From assembly GCA_020831635.1 (NCBI GenBank), contig JAFIGC010000027.1, positions 1 through 49,320 of the forward strand: DNA of 49,320 nucleotides. The letters run 5' to 3'. Below the pieces are notes generated by a model. It ran no database searches. It was given only the letters and a program-made list of their open reading frames with translations, and had not been told where the DNA came from. The translations under genes and the position numbers were made by a program. Below are positions 3,348 to 21,273 of this stretch, in pieces (the stretch's first letter is position 1; every line of letters starts with the position of its first letter). This DNA comes from Verrucomicrobiota bacterium (GTDB lineage Bacteria > Verrucomicrobiota > Kiritimatiellia > SS1-B-03-39 > UBA6053).

Positions 3348-4544
3348 ATGAACTGGGAAACGAAACGACTTGAAGAGGTGGCAGACTTTTGTCTTGGCAA
3401 AATGCTGGACCAGAAAAAGAACCGTGGAGAGCTTATGCCCTATCTTGCAAATATAAATGTGAGATGGGGAGAATTTGAAATGTCAGAATTACGACAGATG
3501 CGCTTTGAACCCCACGAAATGGACCGCTATGGCTTGCGCTATGGGGATATCGTCATGTGCGAAGGAGGCGAACCGGGGCGTTGTGCGATTTGGAAAGAGC
3601 AGCAATCGGGCATGATGATCCAAAAAGCTTTGCACCGGATACGTCCTCATGAACGCCTTCGTCCCGAGTTTTTGTTTTACTATTTTCTGCACAAAGGACG
3701 GTTGGGGCATTTTTCGTCCTTATACACAGGATCGACGATTAAACACCTGCCCCGAGAAAAGCTCGCACTTATAGAGGTCCCGATCCCGCCTCTTCACGAG
3801 CAAACACGCATCGCCGACATTCTCTCCGCCTACGACGATCTGATTGAGAACAACCGGCGGCGGATCGCGCTGCTGGAGGAGTCGGCAAGGCTCTTGTACC
3901 GGGAATGGTTCGTCCATCTCCGCTTTCCCGGTCACGAACACGTCAAGATCATCGATGGCGTGCCGGAGGGGTGGGAGAGAAGACCCATTGCCGAACTTAC
4001 AGATTACTTGGGTCGAGGAATAGCCCCCAAATATGACGACAATGCAGAATGCATTGTTGTTAATCAAAAATGCATCCGTGGAGGATTGGTGAATTTGGAG
4101 TTGGCAAGAGCGCAATCAAAAACTTTCAGCTCGGAACGGCAACTGGTTGATGGTGATGTTCTAATTAACTCAACGGGTGAGGGAACCCTTGGCCGAGTGG
4201 CTCAGATTTTTTCACCACCGGAAGTTTGCACTGTAGACTCGCATGTGACAATTGCCAGACCTTGCAAAACGATTGGTAAACACTACTTCGGTATTTCTTT
4301 GATTCAGCTTGAATCCGTTTTTTCGACTATGGGCCGTGGGGCGACGAATCAAACAGAGTTGTCGAAGCAACAAATCGGTGAAATTCAGATTTACCAACCT
4401 TGTGGTCAAGTAATCCTTCACTTTGAAAAAACGGTAGCACATTTAAGAACAATGGTACATACGCTCAGTCGACAAAACGTCTTTCTCTCTCAAGCCCGCG
4501 ACCACCTCCTACCGAAGCTTATGAGCGGGGAGGTGGAGGTGTGA
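3348..4544 (+). CDS. hsdS: Type I restriction-modification specificity subunit HsdS
   Basis: This is the DNA-recognition subunit, which sets the target sequence of the type I enzyme. At 398 residues it has the usual length and the two-fold layout: a first target-recognition domain (residues 1-145), a conserved helical spacer (IPPLHEQTRIADILSAYDDL, then ENNRRRIALLEESARLLYREW), a second recognition domain (about 210-370), and a terminal helix ending QARDHLLPKLMSGEVEV. The recognition domains, especially the second, are clearly more AT-rich than the flanking hsdM and hsdR, as expected for frequently exchanged domains. No frameshift is visible. Its stop overlaps the next gene start (GTGA). Confidence 0.92.
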   Translation: MNWETKRLEEVADFCLGKMLDQKKNRGELMPYLANINVRWGEFEMSELRQMRFEPHEMDRYGLRYGDIVMCEGGEPGRCAIWKEQQSGMMIQKALHRIRPHERLRPEFLFYYFLHKGRLGHFSSLYTGSTIKHLPREKLALIEVPIPPLHEQTRIADILSAYDDLIENNRRRIALLEESARLLYREWFVHLRFPGHEHVKIIDGVPEGWERRPIAELTDYLGRGIAPKYDDNAECIVVNQKCIRGGLVNLELARAQSKTFSSERQLVDGDVLINSTGEGTLGRVAQIFSPPEVCTVDSHVTIARPCKTIGKHYFGISLIQLESVFSTMGRGATNQTELSKQQIGEIQIYQPCGQVILHFEKTVAHLRTMVHTLSRQNVFLSQARDHLLPKLMSGEVEV

Positions 4545-5356
4545 ATAATAAACCCTTGTCATCTATCTCTACAAAGGGTGTATCCCTTGCGGATTCAACT
4601 TCCGGATGGCGGGCCAATGCCAACTTCTTACTGCCCACAAACTACGAGCTACAATTTGAAGCGATTCGCAGCCTTCTTCAGGACCATGAGAAAAACGAGA
4701 ACGAACTGCAGGCACGCATCGAAGAATTAGAACGAAAAATTGAAGCGTCACCGCCTGAAACCGAAATAGTGCCGATCATCCAGCGCATTGATTGTCTTGA
4801 GAGTTCCGTGTTTTTGCATGCCGCACATTCCATGTCAGCCTTGGGAGCATTGGCTCCCTTTTTCGAATCGTTGTTTCACACCCTTTTTCTTCAGATCAAA
4901 CCCTACTTCGAAGGAAACGGAAATCCGCATGATCGCTGGAAACAGGCAAGTGACGATGCCTGGGATTGTCACTTTCACTGGGTGAAGGGCAAACGAAACA
5001 AAGGGATCGTGGAAGGTATACGCCAGTTGTCCCAAGCGACAGATTTTGAAAAGTATCTGCCCGTCGGGTATGACGAACCTCTGCAGGCACTGTTCGCCTA
5101 TCGCAATAAAATGTTTCATTGTGGGTTTGAATGGAGTGAATCGGAAAAGAAAAAATTCCAGAAAATGATCACAGATCATCAGTGGTATCCGACATGGTTT
5201 GAGTGCTCAAAATCCGGAGGGGAGCCTTGGATATATTACATGTCTTCGCCTTTTATCGAACGGTTACTTGAATTGATTGATGAGATACTTCAGGCTGTAG
5301 GGCGTTATACCGGGGAAGTTATCCGAGTGAAATCCAATGAAAATCATGGAGTTTGA
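4541..5356 (+). CDS. Uncharacterised protein with a HEPN-like RNxxxH motif, encoded inside the RM operon
   Basis: I do not recognise a named family. The 271-residue protein has a predicted coiled coil (about 45-70, rich in E, K and L), a helical middle (about 84-120) and a conserved-looking core around AYRNKMFHCGFEW. R188-N189-x3-H193 fits the RX4-6H motif of HEPN ribonucleases, in which a polar residue often follows the Arg. HEPN domains are frequent toxins in defence loci. The gene starts at GTG 4541, overlapping the hsdS stop by 4 bp, so it is co-translated with the RM operon. Base composition is AT-rich compared with hsdM and hsdR. It could instead be a non-catalytic HEPN or an unrelated helical protein. 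Confidence 0.5.
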   Translation: MNNKPLSSISTKGVSLADSTSGWRANANFLLPTNYELQFEAIRSLLQDHEKNENELQARIEELERKIEASPPETEIVPIIQRIDCLESSVFLHAAHSMSALGALAPFFESLFHTLFLQIKPYFEGNGNPHDRWKQASDDAWDCHFHWVKGKRNKGIVEGIRQLSQATDFEKYLPVGYDEPLQALFAYRNKMFHCGFEWSESEKKKFQKMITDHQWYPTWFECSKSGGEPWIYYMSSPFIERLLELIDEILQAVGRYTGEVIRVKSNENHGV

Positions 5357-5506: not shown

Positions 5507-6475
5507 ATGCCCACTGCTGACCAGATCAAATCTCTGATTCACTCCCACTTCACGGAAGACCAGGAGCGTTTCTACACGATTGCCTTGCAGATGGCGGCAC
5601 ATGAGGCGCGGCAGGGTCATTCTTCGCTGGCCATGGACATTCGGCGGATCGTGGACGAGGAGCGTAAAAAGTCGGGTCCAAAGCTGCTCTCCTTTCCCAA
5701 AGAGCTTCAGGGGCTGGTGTTGACCGAGGAACCGATGACGGGGATTCAGTCGTTGGTGATCCCGACGGAAATTCAAAACCGATTGAAACGGGTGGTGCAT
5801 GAATACCGGCAACAGGAAAAGCTGAAATCCCACGGGCTTTCCCACCGCCGGAAACTGCTCCTGATGGGACCTCCCGGCACCGGGAAAACCATGACGGCCC
5901 GGGTGCTGGCTCACGAGCTGGGCCTCTCCCTGCACACCATTCAGGTGGACCGTCTGGTGACGAAATTCATGGGAGAGACGGCGGCCAAGCTCCGGCAGAT
6001 CTTCGACCTGATCCGCCAGGAGCACGGGGTCTACCTTTTCGATGAATTTGATGCCATCGGCGGGGACCGCTCCACGGACAACGATGTGGGTGAAATGCGG
6101 CGGGTTCTGAATGCCTTCCTTCAGTTCATTGATCAGGACACCTCCGACAGTCTGATCGTGGCCGCCACCAACACCCCCCGCCTGCTTGACCCGGCCCTGT
6201 TTCGCCGTTTCGATGATGTGATCACCTACGACCACCCCTCTTCCGGTGAGCGCAAAACGCTGATCCGCAATTTGCTGACTCGTTTCATGGCCAAAAACTT
6301 CGCGTGGAACCAAGTGCTGGCGGTGAGCGAGGGGCTGAGTCATGCCGAGATCGACCATGCCTGCCGTGATGCGGTCAAAAACGCGATTTTATCTGATAAA
6401 ACTAAAATCAGCGCAAGTGATTTATTGGTGACCCTTCGGGAACGGAAGAGTACCACAACGGCGCAAAAGGGATAA
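5507..6475 (+). CDS. AAA family ATPase (type usually paired with an S8 peptidase)
   Basis: This is a cytoplasmic AAA ATPase of 322 residues. It has an N-terminal helical region (1-60), Walker A GPPGTGKT (121-128), Walker B LFDEFD (177-182), sensor-1 AATNTP and a second region of homology with the RRFD arginines. From memory, close relatives with the FMGETAAKLR and VYLFDEFDAIG motifs are encoded beside a subtilisin-like S8 peptidase as a two-gene defence or quality-control pair. No such protease is present in this window: the next genes are abiEi and abiEii. The start ATG 5507 has only a weak ribosome-binding site. A terminator-like hairpin lies upstream, so the gene may have its own promoter. 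Confidence 0.85.
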   Translation: MPTADQIKSLIHSHFTEDQERFYTIALQMAAHEARQGHSSLAMDIRRIVDEERKKSGPKLLSFPKELQGLVLTEEPMTGIQSLVIPTEIQNRLKRVVHEYRQQEKLKSHGLSHRRKLLLMGPPGTGKTMTARVLAHELGLSLHTIQVDRLVTKFMGETAAKLRQIFDLIRQEHGVYLFDEFDAIGGDRSTDNDVGEMRRVLNAFLQFIDQDTSDSLIVAATNTPRLLDPALFRRFDDVITYDHPSSGERKTLIRNLLTRFMAKNFAWNQVLAVSEGLSHAEIDHACRDAVKNAILSDKTKISASDLLVTLRERKSTTTAQKG

Positions 6476-6593: not shown

Positions 6594-7367
6594 ATGGCTT
6601 TACAGAAGCGGAGTATTTTAAACCGGCTGGTTACGGAGGTCCCGGAGGGGCTTCCGGTGACGAGCGCATGGCTGGGGGAGCGCTTGGGAGCCTCGCGTCA
6701 GTTGGTGCGGGCCTATGTGCAGAATCAGTGGCTGGCGAATCCCTGCCGGGGTGTCTATGTGCGGAATCTGGACAAGCTGACCTGGCTGACCGCGCTGGTG
6801 GGCGTGCAGCGGGTGGCGGGCCTGTCGTGTTTTCCGGGAGGGGTGACGGCGCTGCAACTGCTGGGGTACGCGCATTATCTGCCCATGGGCGCGGGCTCTG
6901 AAGTCGTGCTGGGGGGAACGGACGCGCCTCCACCTTGGTTGAATCGCCTTGATCTGCCGGTTTCGTTCCGGGCCTTGGGGAGGCGTTTGTTTGCCACGCC
7001 CGACTCCGGACTGGTCCCGCATCCCGTGCCGGGTCTGGAGGAGACGTTGCGGGTACCCTCCCCGCCCCGGGCCATGCTGGAAGTCTTGTCGGAGGTGGAG
7101 GATGAGGCTTCGTTCACGGCGGCCTATGAACTCTTCGAGGGGCTGACATCTTTGAACCCCACCGAGGTTCGCGCGCTTTTGCTGGATTGCACCCACATCA
7201 AGGCGAAGCGTTTGTTTCTGCTGATGGCCGACAGGGCCGGAGTCGCCTGGGGACGCAAACTGGAGGACGGGGAATTTGATCTGGGCAGCGGGAAACGGGA
7301 AGTGGTTCGGGGAGGCCGTTTGAACCGTCGCTTTGGGGTCACGGTGCCGGAGGGGTTCCATGATTGA
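6594..7367 (+). CDS. abiEi: AbiEi-like antitoxin of a type IV toxin-antitoxin system
   Basis: This is the predicted antitoxin and autorepressor of the AbiE system. The 257-residue protein has an N-terminal winged helix (about 1-60, VTSAWLGERLGASRQLVRAY, then NPCRGVYVR) and a C-terminal domain of the AbiEi type (about 80-257). It lies just upstream of, and overlaps by 8 bp, an AbiEii nucleotidyltransferase, the standard order for this system. AbiE systems cause bacteriostasis during phage infection; the antitoxin does not bind the toxin directly in the studied examples. Here the pair sits inside an RM locus, between the AAA ATPase and hsdR. Confidence 0.8.
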   Translation: MALQKRSILNRLVTEVPEGLPVTSAWLGERLGASRQLVRAYVQNQWLANPCRGVYVRNLDKLTWLTALVGVQRVAGLSCFPGGVTALQLLGYAHYLPMGAGSEVVLGGTDAPPPWLNRLDLPVSFRALGRRLFATPDSGLVPHPVPGLEETLRVPSPPRAMLEVLSEVEDEASFTAAYELFEGLTSLNPTEVRALLLDCTHIKAKRLFLLMADRAGVAWGRKLEDGEFDLGSGKREVVRGGRLNRRFGVTVPEGFHD

Positions 7368-8286
7368 CCGAAACTCCCCGTATTTTCGTCAGGTCGAACT
7401 GCTGGTGCGGGTGATGCTGTTTCTGGAGGAGGAGCCCTGCTTTGCCGTGAAAGGCGGCACGGCGATCAATCTGTTTGTCCGGGATCTGCCCCGTCTGTCG
7501 GTGGACATTGATTTGGTGTATGTCCCGATACAGGACCGCGAATCCTCCCTGGGAGCGATGGATGCGGCGTTGCGCCGTATGGCGGTTCGGATGGAGGAGG
7601 TACTGAAGGGGCTCCGGGTGACTTTGTCTTTTCTGCATGGGACGGAAACCGTCAACAAGCTGATGCTGGAGTTGAACGGTGTGAGGGTGAAGGTGGAGGC
7701 GAGCCCGGTGTTGCGGGGGCTGCTGGAACCTCCGGTCTGGTCCACGGTTCGAGAAGGGGTGGCGGAACGGATCGGTTACGCGGAGGCTTGGGTGGCGGCG
7801 GTGCCGGATTTATTCGGGGGTAAGATTTGCGCGGCATTGGATCGTCAACATCCACGGGATTTATACGATTTGCGGGGATTGATGTCCGAGGGGCTTTTGA
7901 ACGCGGAGGTGTTTCAAGCGGTGTTGGTGTATATGATCAGTCATCCCCGGCCCATCGCGGAATTGCTGAGCCCGAATCGTAAGGATTTGTCGGGAGTGTT
8001 TGCACGGGAGTTCGCGGGCATGACCTTGGAACCTTGCACATTGAAGGAATTGGAGGATGCGAGAGAGGAACTGATTGCGTGGGTGAATGGGTCGCTTCAG
8101 GAAGAACACAAGCGGTTTCTCCTGTCCTTCAAACAGGGGGAACCAGAGTGGGAGTCGCTGGGGGTGTCGGCGGCAAAAGAGTTGCCCGCTGTACAGTGGA
8201 AGCTTTCGAGCATTCGCGCAATGTCGGCCCGAAAGCGCAACCTGGCCTTGCAGAAACTGGATCAGGTGCTTAGAGGTGAGAGGTAA
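7360..8286 (+). CDS. abiEii: AbiEii-like nucleotidyltransferase toxin
   Basis: This is the predicted toxin of the AbiE pair, a DNA polymerase beta-fold nucleotidyltransferase. The 308-residue protein shows the expected motifs: KGGTAINLF (31-39), the metal-binding D49 and D51 in SVDIDLVY, a following basic/acidic strand (VRVKVEASP), and the helical motif PDLFGGKICAALDRQHPRDLYDL split across about residues 149-171. The ATG at 7360 overlaps the antitoxin stop. Its own stop is one base away from the hsdR ATG (TAAG-ATG), so hsdR is probably translated from the same message. Confidence 0.85.
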   Translation: MIDRNSPYFRQVELLVRVMLFLEEEPCFAVKGGTAINLFVRDLPRLSVDIDLVYVPIQDRESSLGAMDAALRRMAVRMEEVLKGLRVTLSFLHGTETVNKLMLELNGVRVKVEASPVLRGLLEPPVWSTVREGVAERIGYAEAWVAAVPDLFGGKICAALDRQHPRDLYDLRGLMSEGLLNAEVFQAVLVYMISHPRPIAELLSPNRKDLSGVFAREFAGMTLEPCTLKELEDAREELIAWVNGSLQEEHKRFLLSFKQGEPEWESLGVSAAKELPAVQWKLSSIRAMSARKRNLALQKLDQVLRGER

Positions 8287-8287
8287 G

Positions 8288-11200
8288 ATGCAACCGTTCA
8301 ACGAAGACAACTTGGTTCAGCAAACCACCGCCGACTATCTGGAGAGTGCGCTGGGATGGCGTTCGGTGTTTGCGTTCAATCATGAGGTGTTCCTCATGAA
8401 CCCTCACCCCCGACCCCTCTCCCAGAGGGAGAAGGGAGACACCGATGAATTTACTCTTGCGGATGGAAAAGTGAATTTGGGCAGAACATCGGATCGTGAG
8501 GTGGTGTTGACCCGGTCCCTGCGTTCCAAGCTGGAGGAACTGAATCCGGGGCTGCCTGCGGAGGCCTACGAGGACGCGGTACGTGAGGTGGTGACGGTTT
8601 CCAGCACGCAATCCCTGGAGGCGACGAACCGGGAGAAGTACGGGCTGATTCGGGACGGGGTGCAGGTCGGTTTCAAGAACGCCAAAGGGGAACGGCAACG
8701 GGAGCGTCTGCGGTTGATGGATTTCGAGGATCCGTCCCGGAATGAGTTTCTGTGTGTGCGTGAATTGTGGGTGCGGGGCGATCTGTATCGACGGCGGGCG
8801 GACATCGTGGGTTTTGTGAACGGGCTGCCGTTGATGTTCTTGGAGTGTAAAAACGTCTCAAAGGATCTGCGGGTCGCGTATGAGCGCAACTACAAAGATT
8901 ATCTGGACGTGGTGCCGCATCTGTTTCATCACAACGCCATGGTGGTGCTGGCGAACGGAATCGACGCCAAGATCGGGGCGTTGGGCAGTCCCTATAAGTT
9001 TTTCAGTGAGTGGAAGCGGCTGGCGGAGGATGAGCCGGGGGTGGTACACATGGAAACACTGCTCAAGGGGGTGTGCGAAAAGCGGAATTTCCTGGATCTG
9101 TTGGAGAATTTCATCCTCTTCGATGAGTCCCTGGGCAAGCCCAAGAAAATCCTGGCGAGAAACCATCAGTTCCTGGGGGTTAACCGGGCCGTGGAGGCGG
9201 TGCGAAATCGAAAGGCCCTGGAGGGCAAGCTGGGTGTCTTCTGGCACACGCAGGGATCGGGGAAGAGCTTTTCCATGGTGATGTTCACACGGAAGGTCCA
9301 CCGCAAGCTGGGAGGGAATTTCACGTTTCTGGTGCTGACGGACCGGGAGGATTTGGACACGCAAATTTACAAGACTTTCGCGGGTTGTGGGGTGGTGGAT
9401 CATGACCGGAACCCGTGCCGGGCCTCCAGCGGTCAGGATCTGGGGCGTTTGCTTGCCCAGCATAAATCGCATGTCTTTTCGCTGATCCAAAAGTTCAATC
9501 AGGAGTTGGGAGAGGATGAGGCCTATACGCTGCGGGATGATGTGATCACGATCACGGATGAGGCGCACCGAACCCAATACGGCACCTTGGCGCTGAATCT
9601 GCGCAACGCCCTGCCAAACGCCAGCTACATCGGCTTCACGGGTACGCCGTTGTTCAAAGAGGATGAAATCACGCGGCGGGTCTTCGGCGACTATGTTTCC
9701 ACCTACGACTTTCAACGGGCGGTGGAGGACAAGGCGACCGTGCCGCTTTATTACGATGCCCGGGGGGACAAGCTGGGAATCACGGTGGGGGATCTGGACG
9801 AAAGAATCGCGGCCAAACTGGAGGAACTGGGCACGCAGGATATCGACGAAGTGCAGCGGCTGGAAAAGGAACTGAAACGGGATTACCACATCATCACGGC
9901 GGGAAAGCGTTTATCGCAGGTTGCCGAAGATTTTGTGTCGCATTATTCCACGGCGTGGGAAAGCGGGAAGGCGATGATGGTCTGCATCGACAAGATTACC
10001 TGTTTAAGGATGCACAAGCTGATCAGTTTCTTTTGGGATGAGCGGGTCCGGGAACTGGAACGCGATCTGGCCAATGCGGAGGACGAACAGGATGCCTTGA
10101 TGCGGGAGCGTCAAATCGAGTGGATGCGCAAAACACGCGTGGCCGTGGTGGTCAGCGAAGAACAGGGGGAGGTCGAGAAATTCCGTAAATGGGATTTGGA
10201 TATCCTTCCGCACCGCCGTCTGATGAAGGAGGGCATGGATCTGCCGGAAACGCTGAGGAATCTCCCGGAATTCAGAAATCTCCAGCGTCTGCCTTTGGAG
10301 GACGCGTTCAAGGAGGAGCGGCATCCCTTCCGCATCGTCATCGTCTGCGCGATGTGGCTGACCGGTTTCGACGTGCCTTGTTTGTCCACCCTGTACTTGG
10401 ACAAGCCGTTGAAGGCCCACACGCTCATGCAGGCCATCGCCCGCGCCAACCGGGTCAATGAGGGGAAAAACAACGGCCTGATTGTGGATTACTGCGGGAT
10501 CTTGAAAAACCTGCGCAAGGCCTTGGCCACCTTTGCGGGCACGGGTGACGATGGGCGCGGCGGGGGTGGCGGCGGTGAGGATCCGGCCCGTCCCGGGGAG
10601 GAACTGCTTGCGGAACTGGCGGAAGGGATCGCGTTGGTCCGGGACTTTCTGGAAAAACGGGGCGCGGCGCTGGACGATCTGATTCAGCTCAAGGGATTTG
10701 AACGCAACGCGGCGATTCTACGGGCGAAGGAGGCGGTGAATGAGAATGACGAAACCCGCAAACGTTTCGAGGTCATGTGCCGAACCGTCTTCGGCCTGTT
10801 CAAGTCCTGTATCACCGTGCAGGGCGTAAACGAGTATCGGCACGACTACCAGGCGATACAGATCATCTACAAGAGTCTGATGGATGACCGCGACCATGCG
10901 GATATCACCGATATTCTCCGGCAGTTGCACGCGGTGGTTGACGAGGCGATTGACACCACGGACCCAGTGGTCAATGAGTCCGATGGCCCCTATGACATCA
11001 GCAAAATTGATTTTGATCGTCTTCGGCGTGAATTTGAGAGAAGCAAAGCGAAACGAACCACGGTGCAAAGCCTCAAGGTCCTGATCGAAAAACGACTGAT
11101 GGCTCTACTGCAACGCAACCCCATGCGCACCGACTTTCAGCGCCACTACGAGGAAATCGTGGCCGACTACAACCGGGAGAAGGATCGGATTACCATCGAA

Positions 11201-11602
11201 AAAACCTTCGACGATTTGATGCGACACATGCAGTCGATGGACGAGGAAGAGTCCCGGGCCGCCAGGGAGGGATTGGATGAAGAGACCTTGGCGATCTTTG
11301 ATCTCCTGAAGAAACCCGATCTGAATGCCCGTGAGATTCAACGCATCAAAGCCGTCGCCAGGGAACTCCTGGATATTCTCAAGGAGGAAAAACTTCGCGT
11401 GGACCATTGGACCGACAAAGAAGCCACCCGGGACGCGGTGCGCCAAACCATCCACGATTTTCTCTGGGACGAACAAACCGGTCTCCCGGATCCCGACTAC
11501 GATGAAACCGACATCGAATCCAGGGCAGCGGAAGTCTTCCGCCACGTCTTCCGCGTATACCCCACATTACCATCGCCATTTTATGGCGGTGAAGCTGCTT
11601 GA
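8288..11602 (+). CDS. hsdR: Type I restriction enzyme endonuclease/translocase subunit HsdR
   Basis: This is the motor and nuclease subunit of the type I RM enzyme, about 1104 residues. The N-terminal PD-(D/E)xK nuclease is visible as D172, then E186-C-K188 in LMFLECKN. The SF2 translocase motifs follow: TQGSGKS (321-327), DEAH (424-427) and FTGTP (450-454), and the helical C-terminal domain extends to the end. Two oddities stand out. Residues 38-50 (NPHPRPLSQREKG) are encoded by a REP-like palindromic element inserted in frame. The last 14 residues read through a small hairpin (11571-11591). ATG 8288 fits the family start. With hsdM truncated, this subunit may have no functional partner unless another hsdM exists. 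Confidence 0.93.
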   Translation: MQPFNEDNLVQQTTADYLESALGWRSVFAFNHEVFLMNPHPRPLSQREKGDTDEFTLADGKVNLGRTSDREVVLTRSLRSKLEELNPGLPAEAYEDAVREVVTVSSTQSLEATNREKYGLIRDGVQVGFKNAKGERQRERLRLMDFEDPSRNEFLCVRELWVRGDLYRRRADIVGFVNGLPLMFLECKNVSKDLRVAYERNYKDYLDVVPHLFHHNAMVVLANGIDAKIGALGSPYKFFSEWKRLAEDEPGVVHMETLLKGVCEKRNFLDLLENFILFDESLGKPKKILARNHQFLGVNRAVEAVRNRKALEGKLGVFWHTQGSGKSFSMVMFTRKVHRKLGGNFTFLVLTDREDLDTQIYKTFAGCGVVDHDRNPCRASSGQDLGRLLAQHKSHVFSLIQKFNQELGEDEAYTLRDDVITITDEAHRTQYGTLALNLRNALPNASYIGFTGTPLFKEDEITRRVFGDYVSTYDFQRAVEDKATVPLYYDARGDKLGITVGDLDERIAAKLEELGTQDIDEVQRLEKELKRDYHIITAGKRLSQVAEDFVSHYSTAWESGKAMMVCIDKITCLRMHKLISFFWDERVRELERDLANAEDEQDALMRERQIEWMRKTRVAVVVSEEQGEVEKFRKWDLDILPHRRLMKEGMDLPETLRNLPEFRNLQRLPLEDAFKEERHPFRIVIVCAMWLTGFDVPCLSTLYLDKPLKAHTLMQAIARANRVNEGKNNGLIVDYCGILKNLRKALATFAGTGDDGRGGGGGGEDPARPGEELLAELAEGIALVRDFLEKRGAALDDLIQLKGFERNAAILRAKEAVNENDETRKRFEVMCRTVFGLFKSCITVQGVNEYRHDYQAIQIIYKSLMDDRDHADITDILRQLHAVVDEAIDTTDPVVNESDGPYDISKIDFDRLRREFERSKAKRTTVQSLKVLIEKRLMALLQRNPMRTDFQRHYEEIVADYNREKDRITIEKTFDDLMRHMQSMDEEESRAAREGLDEETLAIFDLLKKPDLNAREIQRIKAVARELLDILKEEKLRVDHWTDKEATRDAVRQTIHDFLWDEQTGLPDPDYDETDIESRAAEVFRHVFRVYPTLPSPFYGGEAA
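8399..8437 (+). repeat. REP-like palindromic element inserted in frame in hsdR
   Basis: The block of C-rich sequence ending CTCTCCCAGAGGGAGAAGG resembles the widespread extragenic palindrome whose translation reads HPRPLSQRE. CTCTCCC and GGGAGA form the short hairpin. Its length keeps the hsdR frame open. It lies between the conserved first helix of HsdR and the segment GRTSDREVVLTRSL. Confidence 0.7.
11571..11591 (+). repeat. Small hairpin at the 3' end of hsdR
   Basis: CATCGCCAT and ATGGCGGTG can pair around a TTT loop: nine base pairs with one G-U. The element covers the final codons of hsdR and stops just before its TGA. There is no T-run after it, so I do not call it an intrinsic terminator. 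It may be another short dispersed palindrome captured by the gene end. Confidence 0.4.
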
Positions 11603-11687: not shown

Positions 11688-12788
11688 TTAATCGGACATT
11701 TTCTGAAAGCAGCGGTGACAAAGGCAGGTGCCCTCCGCCTCGTTGCTGTGAACCCAATCCTTCGTGTATGTTCCACATAAGCGGCAACGCAGATTGCCGT
11801 CCGGGGTTCCCTCGGGAGAGGACAACGTGTCCCCTGCGGATTTAGAAATCGTTTGGGGGTGTGTGGCGTCTTGAGGAACGGCAGGCGACGAGGTAAAGCT
11901 GTGGGGACGGAAAGCGGAGGAGGCTGCCATTTTATCATTTGCGCGCTTGGCGAGCCGAAGCCGTTCGGCTTGGATGCGTTGAGCCGCTTCCTCTTCTCTG
12001 CGTTTCTTTTCTTCCTCTAATTTTCTTTGTTCCTCTTTGAATCTCTTTCGAGCCTCTATATCTTCCTGTACGATAAGTTCACCGTTATTTGGATCAAATT
12101 TGACTTCATCCAGGGGCGCGATACGCCGGGTGCTCCATTCGTAGACATTCGGCTCATGGATACAGGCCAGGCCCCGATAGATTCTCAGCTCTTTGGATGC
12201 CGTGATCAGAAAGGTCAGGTGTGATCGGTGCGACAAGCTCCAATCACAGTCATCGTATTTGGAAGTCGACCGGAGATCACGGAGGGATTTATGCAATAGC
12301 AATTCTCCTTCCGGTTGCAGGCGAAACGCCGAGTCAGTATGGATGAAAACAGGGGTTATCCCTTGGTGGATACAGGCATCTTTCAGGAGATGTCGAAGTC
12401 GGATGGCCCGGTCAAAAAGGAAATAGCCGAAATTCCGCCCTTTGTGTTGAACCAAAATGTCTATGAAGGCGGAAGTTTTGTCGGCCAGATTGAGCTGAAC
12501 TTCCATCTCCACTTTTTCAAGCCTTTTTGTTCTCAACAACCCATAGAGCTGGGCCTTTGCCTCAAGCACCTCCGGGCTTTGCTTTGCCAAAGGGCAGGTT
12601 TCCAGGGTTTTGTGGGCAAAGTGACTCCGCTTCACGGTACCTTTTCTGAAAACCACCTCGTTTTGACAGTGAGGACATGCCAAGTCACCGGACTTTCCGC
12701 CTTCACGTAGAATATCCTCCCCGTCCACCCAGCGCGGATCAAGAGAGTTGATGAGTTGGTCCTGAGAAATCCATTTGGCTGAAAACAT
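11688..12788 (-). CDS. CoiA-like protein with zinc fingers at both ends
   Basis: The 366-residue protein resembles the competence protein CoiA family. The N-terminal zinc-finger region contains C38, C41, H56, H59 and C65 (CPHCQNEVVFRKG, then RSHFAH). The segment around residues 90-155 matches the position of the CoiA nuclease domain. However, the usual AIE(F/I)Q catalytic strand reads GYFLFD here, so the active site may be altered. A charged coiled coil (about 250-285) and a terminal zinc ribbon (C335, C338, C357, C360) follow. The gene begins 18 bp after the helicase stop on the same strand, so it is probably the fourth gene of that operon. Its function is unknown; nucleic-acid binding is an inference from the zinc fingers. 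Confidence 0.6.
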   Translation of the reverse strand: MFSAKWISQDQLINSLDPRWVDGEDILREGGKSGDLACPHCQNEVVFRKGTVKRSHFAHKTLETCPLAKQSPEVLEAKAQLYGLLRTKRLEKVEMEVQLNLADKTSAFIDILVQHKGRNFGYFLFDRAIRLRHLLKDACIHQGITPVFIHTDSAFRLQPEGELLLHKSLRDLRSTSKYDDCDWSLSHRSHLTFLITASKELRIYRGLACIHEPNVYEWSTRRIAPLDEVKFDPNNGELIVQEDIEARKRFKEEQRKLEEEKKRREEEAAQRIQAERLRLAKRANDKMAASSAFRPHSFTSSPAVPQDATHPQTISKSAGDTLSSPEGTPDGNLRCRLCGTYTKDWVHSNEAEGTCLCHRCFQKMSD

Positions 12789-12806
12789 GGTACACCTGAA
12801 ATTTGG

Positions 12807-15800
12807 TCATCCCGATGGAGGATGTTTGCCGTCGGTTTGAGAATGTAGATAGTCGGTTTCATTCACGATTTTGCATCCATCCACACGAAGTGCGTCCGAA
12901 GTGAGGATTTCATCTTCGTGACAACGTGGAGGTGGCAGCGGCGGAGATAGATCCATGCGCAGTTCCTCCGCCAGTGTTGTCAACTCCTCCTCAGCGTAGT
13001 GTCGGCGCAGAAAGGCCACCAAATCTTCTTGGCGAGGTTGACCGAAGACCATGCGATAGGCGGCCAAGGTGGAGCGCAAATCGCGGTAGTGTCCCACTTC
13101 CTGACTGAGTGGCAGGTTGTAGACATGCCTTTCTATGTGCGCCCCGTCCTTCGTCGTGCAGATCCAATAAGGGATGAGGTCGTTTTGGCCGAATCGCCGG
13201 CATTGCTCCGCAAACTCAAACACGATTTTCCATGGAGGATGGTCTGCTAAAAAAGACATGCCTTCCAAGAAGACTTTCGCCGCGTTTTTTCGGACCGCAT
13301 GGCCTTTGTAACGATGGACACGACCTTCACGCTGTTCAAAATCGACCGGATTACCGGGGAGGTTCCAGTGCACGATGGCATGGCAGTATGTGTGAAAATC
13401 CAGACCCTCCTGTCCAATGGAGGTTGTCGCCAGGACAAAGGGTCTGAAAGGTGAGTTGAATGCGGCCCGGACATGCTCTGCCCGGGAGGATCCGCCACCC
13501 TGATCCTCCCGGTCCGCCCCGTATCGCATGGCATAATGAACCCGCATGGTTGCCGGATCCGGCTCCCAGGCGCCGGACGCTGTTTGCGAAACGTGGTCCA
13601 CTTTCACAAGTGCGGTCCGCAGGGTCAATACCTCCAAAAGCGCCTCCGCCAAATGCGGGAAACGTTTTTCCGGGGGCAGGTAGGCCAAGCCGCGAGATTC
13701 GCAAAGGAGGGCCGTATATTCATCGAGGACCGATTGAAGGCCGCCCTGCATGTTGTACCGGGCCACGCTCAACCAATAGGCCTTGCGGGGATCCAGCCCG
13801 CGAATGATGGAGATGGATTCCGGGGTGTTGAAATAACTGAGAGCGCCATGGGCGCAGGCGGCGGCGATATTCCGCATTTCACAGGCATCCAACGTCCCGC
13901 CTTCCAACATGCGGAAACTGCGCAGCATGCAGTTCCCAATCCCGCCCATCCCCAAAGTGCAAAGCACCTCCACCAGATTCTCGGGTTGTGGACCAAGCGC
14001 AAGTCGGCCCTCCCTGAAGTCGTTCAGGACCTGACAAAGCTCCCGCACATGATCGGCCCAGCGGCCTTCCGGGTCCGGCTCGGCATCCAGCGGGTTTTCT
14101 CCGATCTTTGTCAGCCGCTCGGCCAGATTCGGCTGGTCTGTCCAGGTCCATAATCGGCGACGGTTCTCCTGATCGTCCAAAAGGAAAGGTGCGATCCAGT
14201 ACCAGCGTTCATCTATCGTGCGTTCCTCCAAAAGCGGTACGTTGATCTTATCCAAACGCTCACGGATCGCCTGCATGGCGATATCTCGCATTTCTGAAAG
14301 CGTCAGGGGGGGTGAGGATTTACTGCGGATTTGGAGGGGATCGGTCAGTTCCGCCAAAGAAAAGGACGGCAAAACCAGAGAAAGGATGGGAAGTCCGGTA
14401 AGTCGTTGGTTTGAATAAGCAAAACGCAGGAGGGGACGGCGCTTTTCCCGTTCTTCCGGGGTGTTGATTGCCTCTGGATCCAAAGATCGGATGGCCCGCC
14501 GCTCGGCTTCATAGCTGAGTAAGGCGGCAATGGCTTTGGGAACGACTTTCCAACTGGAGAAGATCAACCGTTTGGTGGCCGGGTTTTCGTTACTGTCCGC
14601 ATACGCACCCTCCAGCGGATAATACGGCAGACTGGGCGGCACCCAGAGATGTCTCCAGGTTTTTGCGACGGTGTCCTCCAAAAGCATGCGCATTTTGGCA
14701 TGGGCAGGGTCCAGCGGCAAATACCGGGCGAGGTCGTCCCGGTTGAGCCATGCGTCTCCTTGATGGTCAAGCTGGGATTTCAATTGGGAGGCGTCCTCCT
14801 GCAACAGGGCACGGTTGAACGAGCGTTTCAAAGCGTATTCGTCCATGAAATTCAGCAGAAAGGGGGCGGACTTCCAGAAGGTGATCATTGAGGGCTGATT
14901 CAAAACCTTTGCCCAAGCTTCCATTTCCAAATAGGCCAGGAGATCTTTGCGTTGCGGCACCCCGGTGGTATGAACCACTTCCCGCAACATGCCGTTACGA
15001 TCTTGGGTGATGCCCAGGCGTTCGGTCCGTACCATGACCCGCCGGAGTATGGTTTCCAGTTCGAGTTTGATACCCCGTAACGATTCAATCGCACCGTCGC
15101 CACCCGCAAGCAAGTTGTCTTGGAACTGTCCCAGTTTCCGCTGAAACTGCTGTCGCAGATTCTCGTCCCCAAGGAGGAATCCCAAGGTCCGATGAAAATC
15201 CTGATAGTGGTCATCCGTGTCCGATTCCTCATGCAGGGTGTACATCTTGTAGGGGGTTGCGGACAGTAGCAGAACCCGGGCCGAACTTTCCTGCGCTTCA
15301 TAGGCGAAATCGAACAGATTTTGTGCGAGACGCGCCGCCGGCGAATCACCCGACAGGAGATCCTTGAAACGCTGGAACTCGTCGAGAATGATGAGGTCCG
15401 GCTTGAGGGCTTCCAGGCTTACGGCCGCAAGCAGTTCTCGCAATTCGCCAATGACATGTCTCCGTTCGCGCCGATGTTGATCGGATACCCGTGAATCTTT
15501 TCGGGCGAACACCTCACATAACCTGTCAAAGCGATCACGAAGTCCCGGGACCCCGCGAGCGCGGGATTTTGCGTCTTCCTGATCCAGTTGGGCCAGAAAA
15601 GCGGCTTGGATTTCAGGGTCGATCTGTTGGTTGATCCGGCAAGTCTCATGACAAAGCCAGCGAAAGCGTTCCGCGCCACACCCGCATTGTAAAACGTTAA
15701 TTGGCGCCATGCCGGTGAAATTCCAATGCCGATGCAACAAACGGTACAGAAGCGCGCGCTCCACAGCGCGCCCCTCACTCGACTTCAGATCGAAAGAGGT

Positions 15801-16190
15801 CCCGGGTGTGAAAGCGACAAAATTCGTTTTTCGGGACTGGAGTCCATGCACAAACCGGGCCAGTTCGGTGATGCGGTCCGGCAGGGCGAAATCCTGTTGA
15901 GGATTGAAATTCAGCCGGGCGATGTTCTGTTTGGCAATTTCGCGACTGGAGCAGATGTAAACAATATCGATCCGGGGCACGGTCTCCCAAAGGTGATCGA
16001 TGGCTTTGGCGATCAGCCCCCGCGCCACCATGGTTTTCCCAAGGCCCACTTCATCGGCGATCAGAAAACGGCGCGTGGGGTTCTCATCCAGATACATCCG
16101 TTGGAAAACGGCATCCACGGTGCGCATTTGAAAATCTTTCAGACCGGATAGCGCTTGATTCACATTGGGACGGGGGCAATCCGTACTCAT
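12807..16190 (-). CDS. Large SF2 (SNF2/DEAD-like) helicase of a three-protein defence-type operon
   Basis: This is a predicted nucleic-acid-dependent ATPase of 1127 residues. It has Walker A ADEVGLGKT (45-53), motif II DEFQ (270-273), motif III SATP (310-313) and C-terminal helicase motifs V/VI (SIGQEGLDF, then EQREGRVHR). An insertion before motif II carries C169, C171, C180 and C184, a possible zinc site. ATG 16190 overlaps the preceding gene's stop in an ATGA junction and is preferred over an upstream start at 16229. The order DUF6361-like, PLD-fold, helicase resembles the Azaca defence system (zacABC) as I recall it; I could not verify this. DISARM is less likely because there is no DUF1998 gene. 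Confidence 0.8.
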   Translation of the reverse strand: MSTDCPRPNVNQALSGLKDFQMRTVDAVFQRMYLDENPTRRFLIADEVGLGKTMVARGLIAKAIDHLWETVPRIDIVYICSSREIAKQNIARLNFNPQQDFALPDRITELARFVHGLQSRKTNFVAFTPGTSFDLKSSEGRAVERALLYRLLHRHWNFTGMAPINVLQCGCGAERFRWLCHETCRINQQIDPEIQAAFLAQLDQEDAKSRARGVPGLRDRFDRLCEVFARKDSRVSDQHRRERRHVIGELRELLAAVSLEALKPDLIILDEFQRFKDLLSGDSPAARLAQNLFDFAYEAQESSARVLLLSATPYKMYTLHEESDTDDHYQDFHRTLGFLLGDENLRQQFQRKLGQFQDNLLAGGDGAIESLRGIKLELETILRRVMVRTERLGITQDRNGMLREVVHTTGVPQRKDLLAYLEMEAWAKVLNQPSMITFWKSAPFLLNFMDEYALKRSFNRALLQEDASQLKSQLDHQGDAWLNRDDLARYLPLDPAHAKMRMLLEDTVAKTWRHLWVPPSLPYYPLEGAYADSNENPATKRLIFSSWKVVPKAIAALLSYEAERRAIRSLDPEAINTPEEREKRRPLLRFAYSNQRLTGLPILSLVLPSFSLAELTDPLQIRSKSSPPLTLSEMRDIAMQAIRERLDKINVPLLEERTIDERWYWIAPFLLDDQENRRRLWTWTDQPNLAERLTKIGENPLDAEPDPEGRWADHVRELCQVLNDFREGRLALGPQPENLVEVLCTLGMGGIGNCMLRSFRMLEGGTLDACEMRNIAAACAHGALSYFNTPESISIIRGLDPRKAYWLSVARYNMQGGLQSVLDEYTALLCESRGLAYLPPEKRFPHLAEALLEVLTLRTALVKVDHVSQTASGAWEPDPATMRVHYAMRYGADREDQGGGSSRAEHVRAAFNSPFRPFVLATTSIGQEGLDFHTYCHAIVHWNLPGNPVDFEQREGRVHRYKGHAVRKNAAKVFLEGMSFLADHPPWKIVFEFAEQCRRFGQNDLIPYWICTTKDGAHIERHVYNLPLSQEVGHYRDLRSTLAAYRMVFGQPRQEDLVAFLRRHYAEEELTTLAEELRMDLSPPLPPPRCHEDEILTSDALRVDGCKIVNETDYLHSQTDGKHPPSG

Positions 16191-18016
16191 CGCCGCACCT
16201 CCCGCAGCATCGGCGTGACCTGGTCCCATAGATCCACGAAACCCTCTGGAAGCAAAGCCGCCCCTTCTTCGGAGGCACGCAACTGCTCAAGCAATACGCC
16301 CACGCGATCCAAAACGTGTGGGCGTTCACTGAGACAACGCAGCAAGGGTTCCAGCAACGCTTCCGCGTTGATCCACGACAGGTTGTGGGTGCCCGCACCT
16401 CCGCCAGCCGGATCGGTGGAGTCCATGGGGATCGGCGGCTCGCCTTCCTCCGCCATGAGGTATAACAAAAAGCGGGTGACTTCATTGCGGTTGCGCAACA
16501 GGCGACGCAGCAGGCGGTCCTCCCGATCTGCGGGCATGCCCTCAACCGGGAGCTTTAGCACAAAGCGCACCTGCGTCGTCCCCTCGCCGACCCGGGTCTT
16601 GACATCCAAGGCCATAAAGCAACTCAGCGCCTCCAGCGTGCAGTTGGTAAAGGCAATCGGGGTTAAATCAGATGGCAAGGTGCGCGCGCCTGATTCGGGC
16701 AGGGTGACCGGCCAACAGCGGACCGCGTCGATCTCGAACTCCCGATGAGCCGGGAGTTCCTGAAAACGGAGTTGCACATCAAAACCGGAGGTTTCCTCAT
16801 TTTCTACGATCCGCAACGCCCCGCCCGCAGCGGCAAACGCCTTGAAAACCCGCGTGCGTACCCAGTCCAGTTGCGCTTCCGGGTCTACAGGCTCGGCCTC
16901 AGAACCCGGGGTGAATGGGGTCAACAAATCCATGAAAGAGGTGGTGCCCTGTTTCGAAGACATCATGGTAGTCATTCCGCATCGGCTTTCCTTGCCGGCC
17001 AGCCGCACCATGAACTCAACGTTTTGATGCAGGCCCGCGCCGGTGGCGTTTGCGGACCCCGTGAAGAGTTGCGAATTCCACCCATCGTTCACCACAAAAC
17101 ATTTGGCATGGAGCCCGCGCAAGAGACTTGCTTCCTGCGCCTCATCGGCGGAATCTCCCAGCGCATCCGGGTGGAGGATCCAAACAGATTGGAAATGGGA
17201 AAACAGATCCGGGGGCAATGATCTCAGGGCCTCCTCACGGGAGACCAAAACCCCGGTACCCGGGTTGGGAATCAGTTCCCGCAGTCCGCTTTGGTCCAAA
17301 AAGGGCGATAGAATCAAGCGGTGGCGTTTGGGTTGGGGCAGCGGAAGCGTGTCATACCCGCGAATCCCGAGCGGATGGAAATCAAATTCTTCAAATTCCG
17401 GGGGAAGTTCGAAATGCACCCCGCGCAACTCCCCGGCCATCGCCAGAACTCTTTCCCGCGTCTTCGGCTGGGGCTGCGGCATCATATCCGGTAGCGCTCG
17501 GAGAAAATCACAGAGCGGACGATTTTTCGCGACGGACGCCTTCTTCTCCGGGTCGCTTTCCAGACGCAGCAGGGTGTCCCAGGATTGATCAAAGGTGAGG
17601 TTCCTGCTCATGACCAGCAGCCGGTAACGGACAGGCTCATGCACATCGAGCGGACGGAAACGCAAGGCCCAGACTTTGGGGTGAAACAGTCCGCCTTCCT
17701 TGGGGGGCAGCACTTCATGAACACCGCCTTCCAGAAAATGAAAGAAGGAAGCATCACCCTTGGGAAGATGGATGGCCCCGCCCTGACAAAAGAGGTCCAC
17801 CCGATCCGCGTGTCTTCGCAGCGCCTCCAGAAGCAACAGCGGATCTGACACCATTTCCTCATGATCCTCGACCTCCAGCAGGGCAAATGAGAGCGGGACC
17901 AAAAGCATGGCCATGAGATCCAAAGAAAACGTGGTGCCGACCGCATAATCCACCTCATATCCCGACGGGGGGCGCAAAGCCTCCACCAGTTCGCCTCGCA
18001 CACCCGGTTCAAGCAT
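16187..18016 (-). CDS. Phospholipase D-fold protein, probable defence nuclease
   Basis: The 609-residue protein has two half-sites of the PLD superfamily: HPK at 112-114, followed by SRNLT (137-141), and HAK at 303-305, followed by GSANAT (320-325). PLD-fold proteins in defence operons usually act as nucleases and cut through a covalent histidine intermediate. Both halves here have the HxK residues, so the enzyme looks intact. The C-terminal 250 residues are not recognised. It overlaps the upstream gene by 8 bp and the helicase by 4 bp, so the three are translationally coupled and probably work as one complex or pathway. Confidence 0.75.
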   Translation of the reverse strand: MLEPGVRGELVEALRPPSGYEVDYAVGTTFSLDLMAMLLVPLSFALLEVEDHEEMVSDPLLLLEALRRHADRVDLFCQGGAIHLPKGDASFFHFLEGGVHEVLPPKEGGLFHPKVWALRFRPLDVHEPVRYRLLVMSRNLTFDQSWDTLLRLESDPEKKASVAKNRPLCDFLRALPDMMPQPQPKTRERVLAMAGELRGVHFELPPEFEEFDFHPLGIRGYDTLPLPQPKRHRLILSPFLDQSGLRELIPNPGTGVLVSREEALRSLPPDLFSHFQSVWILHPDALGDSADEAQEASLLRGLHAKCFVVNDGWNSQLFTGSANATGAGLHQNVEFMVRLAGKESRCGMTTMMSSKQGTTSFMDLLTPFTPGSEAEPVDPEAQLDWVRTRVFKAFAAAGGALRIVENEETSGFDVQLRFQELPAHREFEIDAVRCWPVTLPESGARTLPSDLTPIAFTNCTLEALSCFMALDVKTRVGEGTTQVRFVLKLPVEGMPADREDRLLRRLLRNRNEVTRFLLYLMAEEGEPPIPMDSTDPAGGGAGTHNLSWINAEALLEPLLRCLSERPHVLDRVGVLLEQLRASEEGAALLPEGFVDLWDQVTPMLREVRR

Positions 18017-19232
18017 GATTCAATCCCTTATGCAAATCGGTGAGGTGACGCAGCACGTTTGCCCAGCGATAGGTCAGTCGCCCGGGGCCGACATCGCCTC
18101 TCCACAGCTCCAGAGCCCGAGGGTTGACAAAGCGCGATGCGGAACGCTTCAGGGAGATTTCCCGCTCACGGACCAGCGACTTCAGACGATCACTTTCCAG
18201 AATCTGAACGGGATGTGCCAGGCCCCGCACACCCTGTGTCCACAGATCCGCGAAGCTCATGGTTCGGGGAGGGATTTTGGTTCCGGATTGATCCAGCAGA
18301 CGCCACAGAGAGGATGGCTGCCACACTTGTAGAACTTCGGGAGCTGTATTCAGCGCCTCGCCCCAGTCCTGAATCAATTCTTCGCAACGTTCGCGAGCGA
18401 CCACTTTTTTTGTTTTTTCAGCGAGCAGCCATTGGTAAAGCAATGAAGCGCCCTGAATCCAAAGCGAAAACGCCTCGGCTTCTTGTAAGAGGGTCTGAAG
18501 ATCGGATGGCAAATCCCGCACATATTCGGACTCCCACATAGCCGGAGTCCGCTCGGGCTCATGATTTTGTCGGACCAAATGCGCCAGCATCGTGCCTTTT
18601 GAGTGAATCATGATGCGGTTACGAAGGTATTCAGCATCTTCAGGGCGAAGGGAGAAAGAGACGGTGTCAGGAAAGCCCTCCGGTGCGGGGGGCAAGGCGG
18701 GGTCCCAATGGCCCGGGTGGCTTCCCGAATAGGACTCGGGGTCATCGGAGGAAACCAAACGCGATTGTTTCAGATAGGCGGTATCCAAAACGCGGTGATA
18801 CTGGGCTTGAGAACCAGGAAACCGGGCGATGCCCCACTTTCGAAGACCGTTCCAATAGATATTACTTGGCATCCGCTGAACCGCCGCGCCGGCATCGCGA
18901 CCTATCAGTCCCTCCAAGTCCCCGCTTCTGGAAAGTGCTTCCATGATACGAACCTCCCACCTCCGCGCCCGTTCACGGATCTCATGGGAGGGCGTTTTCC
19001 GGCGCTCCAGTTCCTGATACATCCAGGGGACGAAGAGAAAATAGCGGGCGCGGGTTTGAATCGTGCTGGTGCCCGGAAACAAGAGATCCGCCAAACCATC
19101 CCGTATCGTGCCAATCCCCATCTCATCCAAAGTGCCTTTCTCCCGGAAAGTCGCGACCAGTTCCTGCATACGCTTCCGCTCCGCTTCGGACGTGTCCAAC
19201 CAAAAAAAACCGCTTGGGATCAATACGCTCAT
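18009..19232 (-). CDS. DUF6361-like protein, first gene of the PLD/helicase operon
   Basis: This protein of about 407 residues matches, from memory, the DUF6361 family. The most characteristic part is GIGTIRDGLADLLFPGTSTI near the N-terminus, followed by QTRARYFLFVPWMY. No catalytic motif is evident. Family members are typically encoded next to a PLD-fold protein and a helicase, exactly as here. ATG 19232 begins MSVLIPSGFFWLD and fits the family start. A GTG at 19274 in the same frame, with AGAAGG upstream, is an alternative that adds 14 residues. I see no convincing promoter in the 76-bp gap to the integrase gene. Confidence 0.7.
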   Translation of the reverse strand: MSVLIPSGFFWLDTSEAERKRMQELVATFREKGTLDEMGIGTIRDGLADLLFPGTSTIQTRARYFLFVPWMYQELERRKTPSHEIRERARRWEVRIMEALSRSGDLEGLIGRDAGAAVQRMPSNIYWNGLRKWGIARFPGSQAQYHRVLDTAYLKQSRLVSSDDPESYSGSHPGHWDPALPPAPEGFPDTVSFSLRPEDAEYLRNRIMIHSKGTMLAHLVRQNHEPERTPAMWESEYVRDLPSDLQTLLQEAEAFSLWIQGASLLYQWLLAEKTKKVVARERCEELIQDWGEALNTAPEVLQVWQPSSLWRLLDQSGTKIPPRTMSFADLWTQGVRGLAHPVQILESDRLKSLVREREISLKRSASRFVNPRALELWRGDVGPGRLTYRWANVLRHLTDLHKGLNHA

Positions 19233-19350
19233 AGGGATGTGTCTCTGAAAACCATAGGAGGAACTTCTTTGCACAGCCCTTCTGATTTCTCAAGCATTTT
19301 CACGTGATGCAATTAGTTCACTAGATTCTCACCCGATAAATGAGAGCTTA

Positions 19351-20991
19351 TCAAAGATCGGACCGAACACTCAGCAATTTCAAAAGTCTCTCTCGGTCCT
19401 CTTTCCATGTCCGGGCCGTCATCCCCTTCAAAATCCCGCGTACCCGTTCAAGGTCCGGCCCCTCCCCGCCCCCGGACTCCGGCTGGTAAAAGCCGTCGGC
19501 CACCCGCGCGAACTCGCGGCGGAAGGTTTCGGTATTGGGCCTGAAATAGTGTTTGCGCACGATATCGACCGCCGAATGCCCGGTGACACGCCGAACCAAT
19601 TCCTCCGGCATCCCGGCGCTCAGCGCTTGGGTGATGAACGTGGTCCTGAAACTGTGCCAGCCATACTTCGACCCTCTTTTCAGCCGGTCTTCAGACGGAG
19701 CTGCCAGGGTCTGGATCGCATCATCCGACGCCGTGGGTCCCCGATGTCGGTAAATCGCACAATGGCAAATTTCTTCCATGGTGTTCAAGTGCAACGATAC
19801 CGTGGACTTGCTGATCTTCATCCGCTTGGCGATTTCCGGCAGCGTCTTCCCCTCCAGATAGGCGTCCAAGACCTTGCGCATCTTTTCCTTTTTCCGACTT
19901 TGGAAGTTTGACAGTTCCAATGCCCGTTCCGCCTTCTTCCGGGTTTCCTCCGGTGTCAATCTGGGCAGTGGCGGACGCCCGGCCTTCGAAGCTTTCGAAT
20001 CCAGCACAAAACCGGCATCGGCCATCATCGCCTTGAACCGGGTGTTTAGCGTCGAACGCTTTTTCGCATCCAGGTACATCCGCGCGGCCTTGGGAAAGAC
20101 ATACTCGCTTTCCTCCCGGGTGCAGAGGCTCAGTTCTTCGGCCAACGGCGGCAGGATGGGAATCTCCACCCGCTCCCCGGTCTTGCTGGTGGTGGCCTGG
20201 ATCATCCCCGCCTTCAAATCCACGGCCTCCCACTTCAGACAACAGGCGTCGCCCTTGCGCAGTGCGGTAAAGCAAGCGACATGCACCGGCCCCCGCAGAA
20301 CCTCATCCTTTTTGGCCGCTTCCAGAATGCGCTCCACCTCTTCCGCGGTGAACGGCTGACGATGCACCGTTTGCTCCGTGCGCTGTTTGGCATTCCGCAA
20401 ATACTGCGTGTAGGCATCCGCCGACGGTTCGAGCTTGGCAAAGACCGACTTCAACAATCCCAAAGTCACATTCCAGGTCCGGGCACTGATTCCCCGGGCG
20501 GACTCCGCCTCCAGAAACGCGGCAACCTGCCGTTCCCGGACATCGATCAAATCCTTGCACTGGGGCCAGTGGTGGTTCATATACGCCACAAAGCGGTTGA
20601 GCACGGCCATGCCATTGGCCTTGTGACCGGCGCTCATCCTGTTTTTACGGGGGAACTTGGCCCAGCGTTCGGGAACGGATGCCAGCTTCACAAACTCCTT
20701 CCCCGCCCCGGTGCGTGTCTTCACAATCCGTTGGGTAAGCTCCTCAACCGTTTTGCGCGACCGCAGATCCTCGACCAGCAGGTCATGGGCAACCTTCGCC
20801 TGATGCTAGCTGTCCATGAACTCGCGGTCCGCCCCCTCCATGGTCTTGAGCGAGGACGGACGGCGACCACGCACGGCCAGCCGCTCCTCGAACCCGGCCG
20901 ATTTCCGGGTCAGCGGAAAACGCCGGATTCCTTCCGGCATACGAATCCGGGCATACCACCATTGCGAAGATGCTTTTAACTCCAAAGCCAT
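19351..20991 (-). pseudogene. Tyrosine recombinase/integrase interrupted by one in-frame amber codon
   Basis: This is a phage-type integrase that would recombine the island at the adjacent tRNA-Gly gene. From ATG 20991 (ribosome site AGGAG a few bases upstream) the N-terminal arm-binding segment reads MALELKASSQWWYARIRMP. It runs to residue 61, where TAG occupies 20808-20806. The same frame then continues without another stop: core-binding domain, then the catalytic domain with the active-site Arg in ALRKGD, HSFR, TGHS and the nucleophile in KHYF. Total length would be 546 codons, normal for this group. One base change could have created the TAG from CAG, AAG or TAC. Alternatives are amber readthrough, a sequencing error, or reinitiation at GTG 20724, which would lose the arm-binding domain. 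Confidence 0.85.
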
Positions 20992-21199: not shown

Positions 21200-21273
21200 T
21201 GGAGCGGGTGGCGGGAATCGAACCCGCGTGACCAGCTTGGAAGGCTGGAGCTTTACCACTAAGCAACACCCGC
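21200..21273 (-). tRNA. tRNA-Gly (anticodon TCC)
   Basis: Read on the minus strand the 74 bases fold as a full cloverleaf: acceptor GCGGGTG/CACCCGC, D stem GCTT/AAGC, anticodon stem CCAGC/GCTGG with loop CTTCCAA (TCC anticodon), and T stem GCGGG/CCCGC with loop TTCGATT. A discriminator T and an encoded CCA follow. The 3' end points at the integrase, the usual arrangement for a tRNA-integrated island. No second copy of the 3' half was seen within the window. Confidence 0.95.

Follow-up and report, generated by a model that had tools for sequence, protein, structure and literature searches.

Four genes follow one another on the minus strand of a 49,320-nucleotide stretch of DNA from a Verrucomicrobiota bacterium (contig JAFIGC010000027.1; hereafter the window), and they raise the question whether the last of them belongs to the anti-phage system formed by the three others or only travels with it. 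A first-pass annotation had proposed an Azaca-like three-gene operon with an added gene for a CoiA-like protein, either as an extended variant of the system or with the added gene as an accessory that handles single-stranded or incoming DNA. Its placement of the genes is confirmed, and the overlaps and the gap that it gave are all exact. The genes zacA (18009..19232; a DUF6361 protein of 407 aa, starting from an ATG at 19232, with an alternative upstream GTG at 19274 possible), zacB (16187..18016; a PLD-fold protein of 609 aa) and zacC (12807..16190; an SF2 helicase of 1127 aa, with its ATG at 16190 and its stop at 12807) are contiguous and co-directional in the order A-B-C, zacA and zacB overlapping by 8 bp and zacB and zacC by 4 bp. 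After a gap of 18 bp, on the same strand, comes the fourth gene (11688..12788), a probable rider that encodes a CoiA-like protein of 366 aa (P0004). Loss or frameshift of the operon is ruled out, as all four open reading frames are intact. The gap contains no outstanding consensus promoter or terminator, such matches occurring across the region at the rate found in shuffled sequence. The fourth gene is probably co-transcribed with zacABC. Its slightly lower GC3 (0.556 versus 0.608-0.674 for zacABC) weakly favours a separate origin.

The Azaca identity of the first three genes, which the first-pass annotation had claimed, is borne out by the PADLOC profiles, which match each subunit over its full length, with the genes in the expected order: ZacA with an E-value of 1e-125 (covering 3-395 of 396), ZacB with 5.6e-169 and ZacC with 0 (1085.6 bits). 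ZacA also matches Pfam DUF6361 (E-value 5.2e-59). The next-best PADLOC profiles for ZacB and ZacC (DISARM, Dpd, BREX and a candidate system) cover short stretches only. The domains of DISARM DrmC (PLD) and DrmD (SF2 helicase) do resemble parts of ZacB and ZacC, respectively, but these matches score far below the curated cut-offs where such are given. ZacB carries two HxK motifs (H112/K114 and H303/K305) and a GSxN motif (320-323), whose positions are 97-100% conserved among 80 aligned sequences except A322 (90%). ZacC contains a Walker A motif GLGKT (49-53), DEFQ (270-273), SAT and QREGRVHR (953-960), and its helicase motifs show strong conservation in an alignment of 91 sequences. Over alignments of 77-91 homologues, the strongly conserved positions are kept by ZacA, ZacB and ZacC of the window. 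The AlphaFold2 model of ZacA is all-helical (pLDDT 90.4); a fold search of solved structures returned no convincing relative, which does not by itself establish a novel fold, and sequence searches of ZacA, ZacC and the P0004 family against solved structures gave nothing useful. Judged from their sequences, the reading of the three core genes as a complete, ordinary Azaca anti-phage system is fully supported. Azaca is listed among systems with a PLD-like domain in a passage of PMC10952713, and ZacC is counted among SF1/SF2 helicases in a passage of PMC12278908; the passages of the literature that mention Azaca give no mechanism. ZacC, as an SF2 translocase/helicase, could be the sensor and translocase that engages invading DNA, and ZacB, with its PLD fold and two HxK motifs, would be the probable effector nuclease. 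ZacA, according to its model, may be an all-helical partner within the system.

The fourth protein was described as CoiA-like with zinc fingers at both ends, and both features hold. Its N-terminus matches CoiA_N (PF25164) above the curated cut-off (E-value 1.1e-11, residues 32-67). The CoiA-type zinc finger lies at residues 38-65 (C38, C41, H56, H59 and C65; 12594..12677, minus strand), and these residues are invariant in the seven proteins that we aligned, namely five members of the P0004 family and two canonical CoiA sequences, one from a viral contig (L137) and one from a B. subtilis plasmid (L159). At the C-terminus, a zinc ribbon CxxC...CxCxxC (residues 335-360; 11709..11786) is invariant in the five family members and absent from both canonical sequences. 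Between these ends, the alignment, structural matches and an AlphaFold2 model built from the five family members (pLDDT 77.5) delimit a predicted PD-(D/E)XK-like core at residues 72-151 (12336..12575). Its elements follow the order alpha-beta-beta-beta-alpha-beta (helix 72-87; strands 92-100, 106-115 and 118-125; helix 132-141; strand 144-151). After the core, the model places a small region of beta structure, then the long helix of residues 241-290 (11919..12068) and last the zinc ribbon. The structural matches are mostly PD-(D/E)XK proteins (Bax1, Can2, Hjc, TnsA, SfsA and TT1808), at modest scores (Z at most 8.7). P0004 does not match CoiA_nuc (PF06054), the nuclease profile of CoiA, at E-values up to 1, and PADLOC gives nothing beyond a weak zinc-finger match to DruB (E-value 0.006). 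It shares with CoiA the CoiA_N zinc finger, the first aspartate and, as predicted, the PD-(D/E)XK-like core, but it lacks the PF06054 match and adds the long helix and the zinc ribbon. The CoiA-type proteins of DUF6035/DUF7830 (e.g. L052:15144-16562) also have an N-terminal CoiA-type zinc finger in common with P0004; the example cited keeps RPD...FEIQ and matches DUF6035, whereas P0004 does not match DUF6035.

Whether P0004 could still cut DNA can be judged from its active site. According to PMC1189080, CoiA belongs to the PD-(D/E)XK nucleases and has the active site PD-EXQ. The first catalytic aspartate (D110) is kept in all five members of the P0004 family. The altered nuclease strand noticed at first reading is real: the canonical strand A-F-E-I-Q or V-V-E-F-Q has become G-Y-F-L-F in P0004, and reads G-Y-W-I-V, A-Y-W-L-F, A-Y-C-I-V and A-Y-W-I-F in the other members, so that the glutamate and the glutamine of ExQ are both replaced by hydrophobic residues (or Cys) in five out of five. 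Because these catalytic positions are lost, a nuclease activity or nuclease role of P0004 appears unlikely, though not disproved. P0004 might instead be an active CoiA-type nuclease with another catalytic arrangement that processes incoming DNA, as the predicted fold and the invariant D110 would allow and as catalytic residues are known to migrate in this superfamily (PMC1189080). We hold this to be very improbable, given the hydrophobic residues at ExQ throughout the family and the missing nuclease profile match; moreover, one member (L140) lacks the two charged residues (D-R, E-K) that come directly behind the strand. P0004 is probably a nuclease-dead zinc-finger protein that binds nucleic acid, as far as its sequence indicates.

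If this protein were a part of Azaca, its relatives should be met beside zacC elsewhere. Our sample comprised 80 Azaca loci from many phyla, found by a profile scan of GTDB genomes, together with plasmid and same-phylum loci. ZacC was present in 89 loci other than that of the window, and for 82 of these the sequence extends 1.2 kb or more downstream; the loci are the best ZacC matches and not a random sample. Every open reading frame of at least 50 aa was searched with phmmer at E-values up to 1. None of the 89 loci yielded a credible relative of P0004, and the sole match outside the known family was a 69-aa open reading frame with an E-value of 0.78, which is not credible. The same class supplied three more Azaca loci, likewise without a relative. 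An adjacency rate of 3.5% or more would give zero in 86 less than 5% of the time, for a sample made of best ZacC matches and not drawn at random. The extended variant with a CoiA-like partner, as first proposed, therefore finds no counterpart at these loci. In whole-genome searches of 74 Azaca carriers, CoiA_N scored above its curated cut-off in four, each time away from the Azaca locus, and was absent at that level from the remaining 70; a recurrent co-occurrence with CoiA-like genes, which the first-pass annotation had proposed to check, is not seen. Clustering of the neighbours of Azaca loci revealed no recurrent fourth gene, the recurrent neighbours being instead relatives of type I HsdR, at 17 loci counting that of the window, and UvrD/AddA-like helicases, at 10 loci.

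A few individual loci deserve mention. A Desulfuromonadales Azaca locus (L052:13409-16562) has an AbiEi/AbiEii-like pair followed by a DUF6035 CoiA-type protein with intact FEIQ. This protein, about 1.9 kb downstream, was rejected as an Azaca partner in view of its DUF6035 match, its intact ExQ and its position behind the AbiEi/AbiEii-like pair, and was counted as an independent island gene. Directly upstream of zacA, two loci (L040 and L041) carry a PD-(D/E)XK and UvrD pair. In genome G157 (L037:6175-6507), the zacB frame stops at about 110 aa, and a transposase-like frame comes next; to judge by these frames, its Azaca looks broken by an insertion. No Azaca was confirmed in viral contigs. 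An unannotated human-faecal phage record (MT835621.1:16221-19280) encodes a ZacC-like protein with 31% identity over 91% of the query.

The surroundings of the operon are those of a defence island, which spans from the contig start to a tRNA-Gly (window 1-21273), the contig beginning inside the island. The tRNA-Gly (tcc anticodon; 21200..21273, minus strand, ARAGORN) is the likely integration site, and it is adjoined by the tyrosine recombinase of the island (19351..20724, minus strand; Pfam Phage_integrase, E-value 2.4e-16). A search of the window for attR, in the form of a second tRNA end, gave no good match. Helix-turn-helix profile matches at about residues 277-318 of the recombinase, between the Phage_integrase match and a C-terminal HxxR-like region, suggest that it carries an inserted HTH. 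The genes of a type I restriction-modification system, HsdM (180-1754), HsdS (3348-4544) and HsdR (8285-11602), are interspersed with others: those of a Schlafen/AlbA_2-type protein (1745-3235), an orphan IetA-type AAA ATPase with no visible IetS (5507-6475) and AbiEi/AbiEii (6594-8286). A 271-aa open reading frame between HsdS and IetA (4541-5356) matched nothing in Pfam at an E-value of 0.001 or in PADLOC at 1e-5.

Relatives of P0004 are rare: among 346 genomes of the class, four encode a family member, that of the window being one of the four, and a fifth genome with a member lies elsewhere in the phylum. None of the four known relatives is beside Azaca, and two of them (L047 and L048) are on contigs of about 3.6 kb. 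One relative (L046) starts 27 bp after a DUF3307 gene. That of L048 follows by about 13 bp a 194-aa protein, itself behind an XRE/IrrE protein in a toxin-antitoxin-like operon. The relative of L140 is in an island near a RES protein and an LmuA-like protein, and that of L047 is near a transposase-like frame and an Abi-like fragment, both identified by eye without a profile; no ZacC end was found in the approximately 250 bp upstream of the latter gene. A phage origin of the fourth gene was rejected, as there was no match in annotated phages and the sole match in a viral contig was a canonical CoiA. In the host family, 11 genomes of which were searched, both Azaca genomes (that of the window and G184) are among the three with a P0004-family gene. 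Azaca and the P0004 relative are unlinked in G184, about 0.86 Mb apart, and G413 has a relative without detected Azaca. Co-occurrence in genomes gives a Fisher p of 0.055 in the host family (n=11) and of 0.001 in the class, the latter confounded by relatedness.

Most probably the locus is a standard Azaca followed by a fourth gene, probably co-transcribed, that is not an Azaca component but a rider in the tRNA-Gly defence island. Its absence from other Azaca loci makes it most likely that the gene is carried along as a passenger instead of contributing a fourth component. Its relatives occur in other contexts, several of them defence-rich or mobile, which supports this reading. The P0004 gene would have been inserted behind zacC within the island, and its product would most likely bind nucleic acid without cutting it, as an independent regulator or rider; the DNA-handling accessory role evoked at first is possible. 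Against the gene being a rider count the 18-bp gap and the shared strand, as a functional operon of four genes could show, as well as the small number of relatives found (four) and the presence of a family gene in the two host-family genomes with Azaca. The spacing, the strand and the co-occurrence would fit a lineage-specific extended Azaca, in which P0004 is a fourth subunit whose zinc fingers recognise ssDNA or DNA ends and which loads or restrains ZacBC, and its DNA-binding-type domains agree with such a role. However, a relative is missing at all other Azaca loci tested, that of G184 included, and one occurs in G413. The fourth-subunit explanation keeps a small probability, owing to the tight spacing and to G184 of the host family, which has both Azaca and a P0004 relative, although far apart.

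As one form of the rider explanation, the fourth gene may act on its own against phages or plasmids and share the Azaca transcript by chance. The relatives near an XRE/IrrE toxin-antitoxin-like operon, near RES and LmuA-like proteins and near an Abi-like fragment point in this direction, but the weak DruB zinc-finger match is all that PADLOC offers, and the relative next to DUF3307 has no obvious defence gene at its side; we take this as a tentative possibility. The rare proteins of the P0004 family derive from CoiA: a zinc finger stands at either terminus, and the predicted PD-(D/E)XK-like fold has lost its ExQ. It is conceivable, if rather doubtful, that this family is a mobile and nuclease-dead offshoot of CoiA, not recognised before, which joins the ends of different defence or toxin-antitoxin operons, such as Azaca and XRE/IrrE, and modulates their action, e.g. 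through the detection of ssDNA or foreign DNA.

This locus illustrates that gene adjacency in defence islands can mislead: on spacing alone one would have assumed a four-gene system, while the comparison across about 90 loci favours a passenger. The window adds one clean Azaca operon, and its ZacA, with a confident fold prediction and no convincing solved relative, may aid work on the mechanism of Azaca. For DNA-binding accessory proteins of defence islands, the dead-CoiA family offers a modest starting point.
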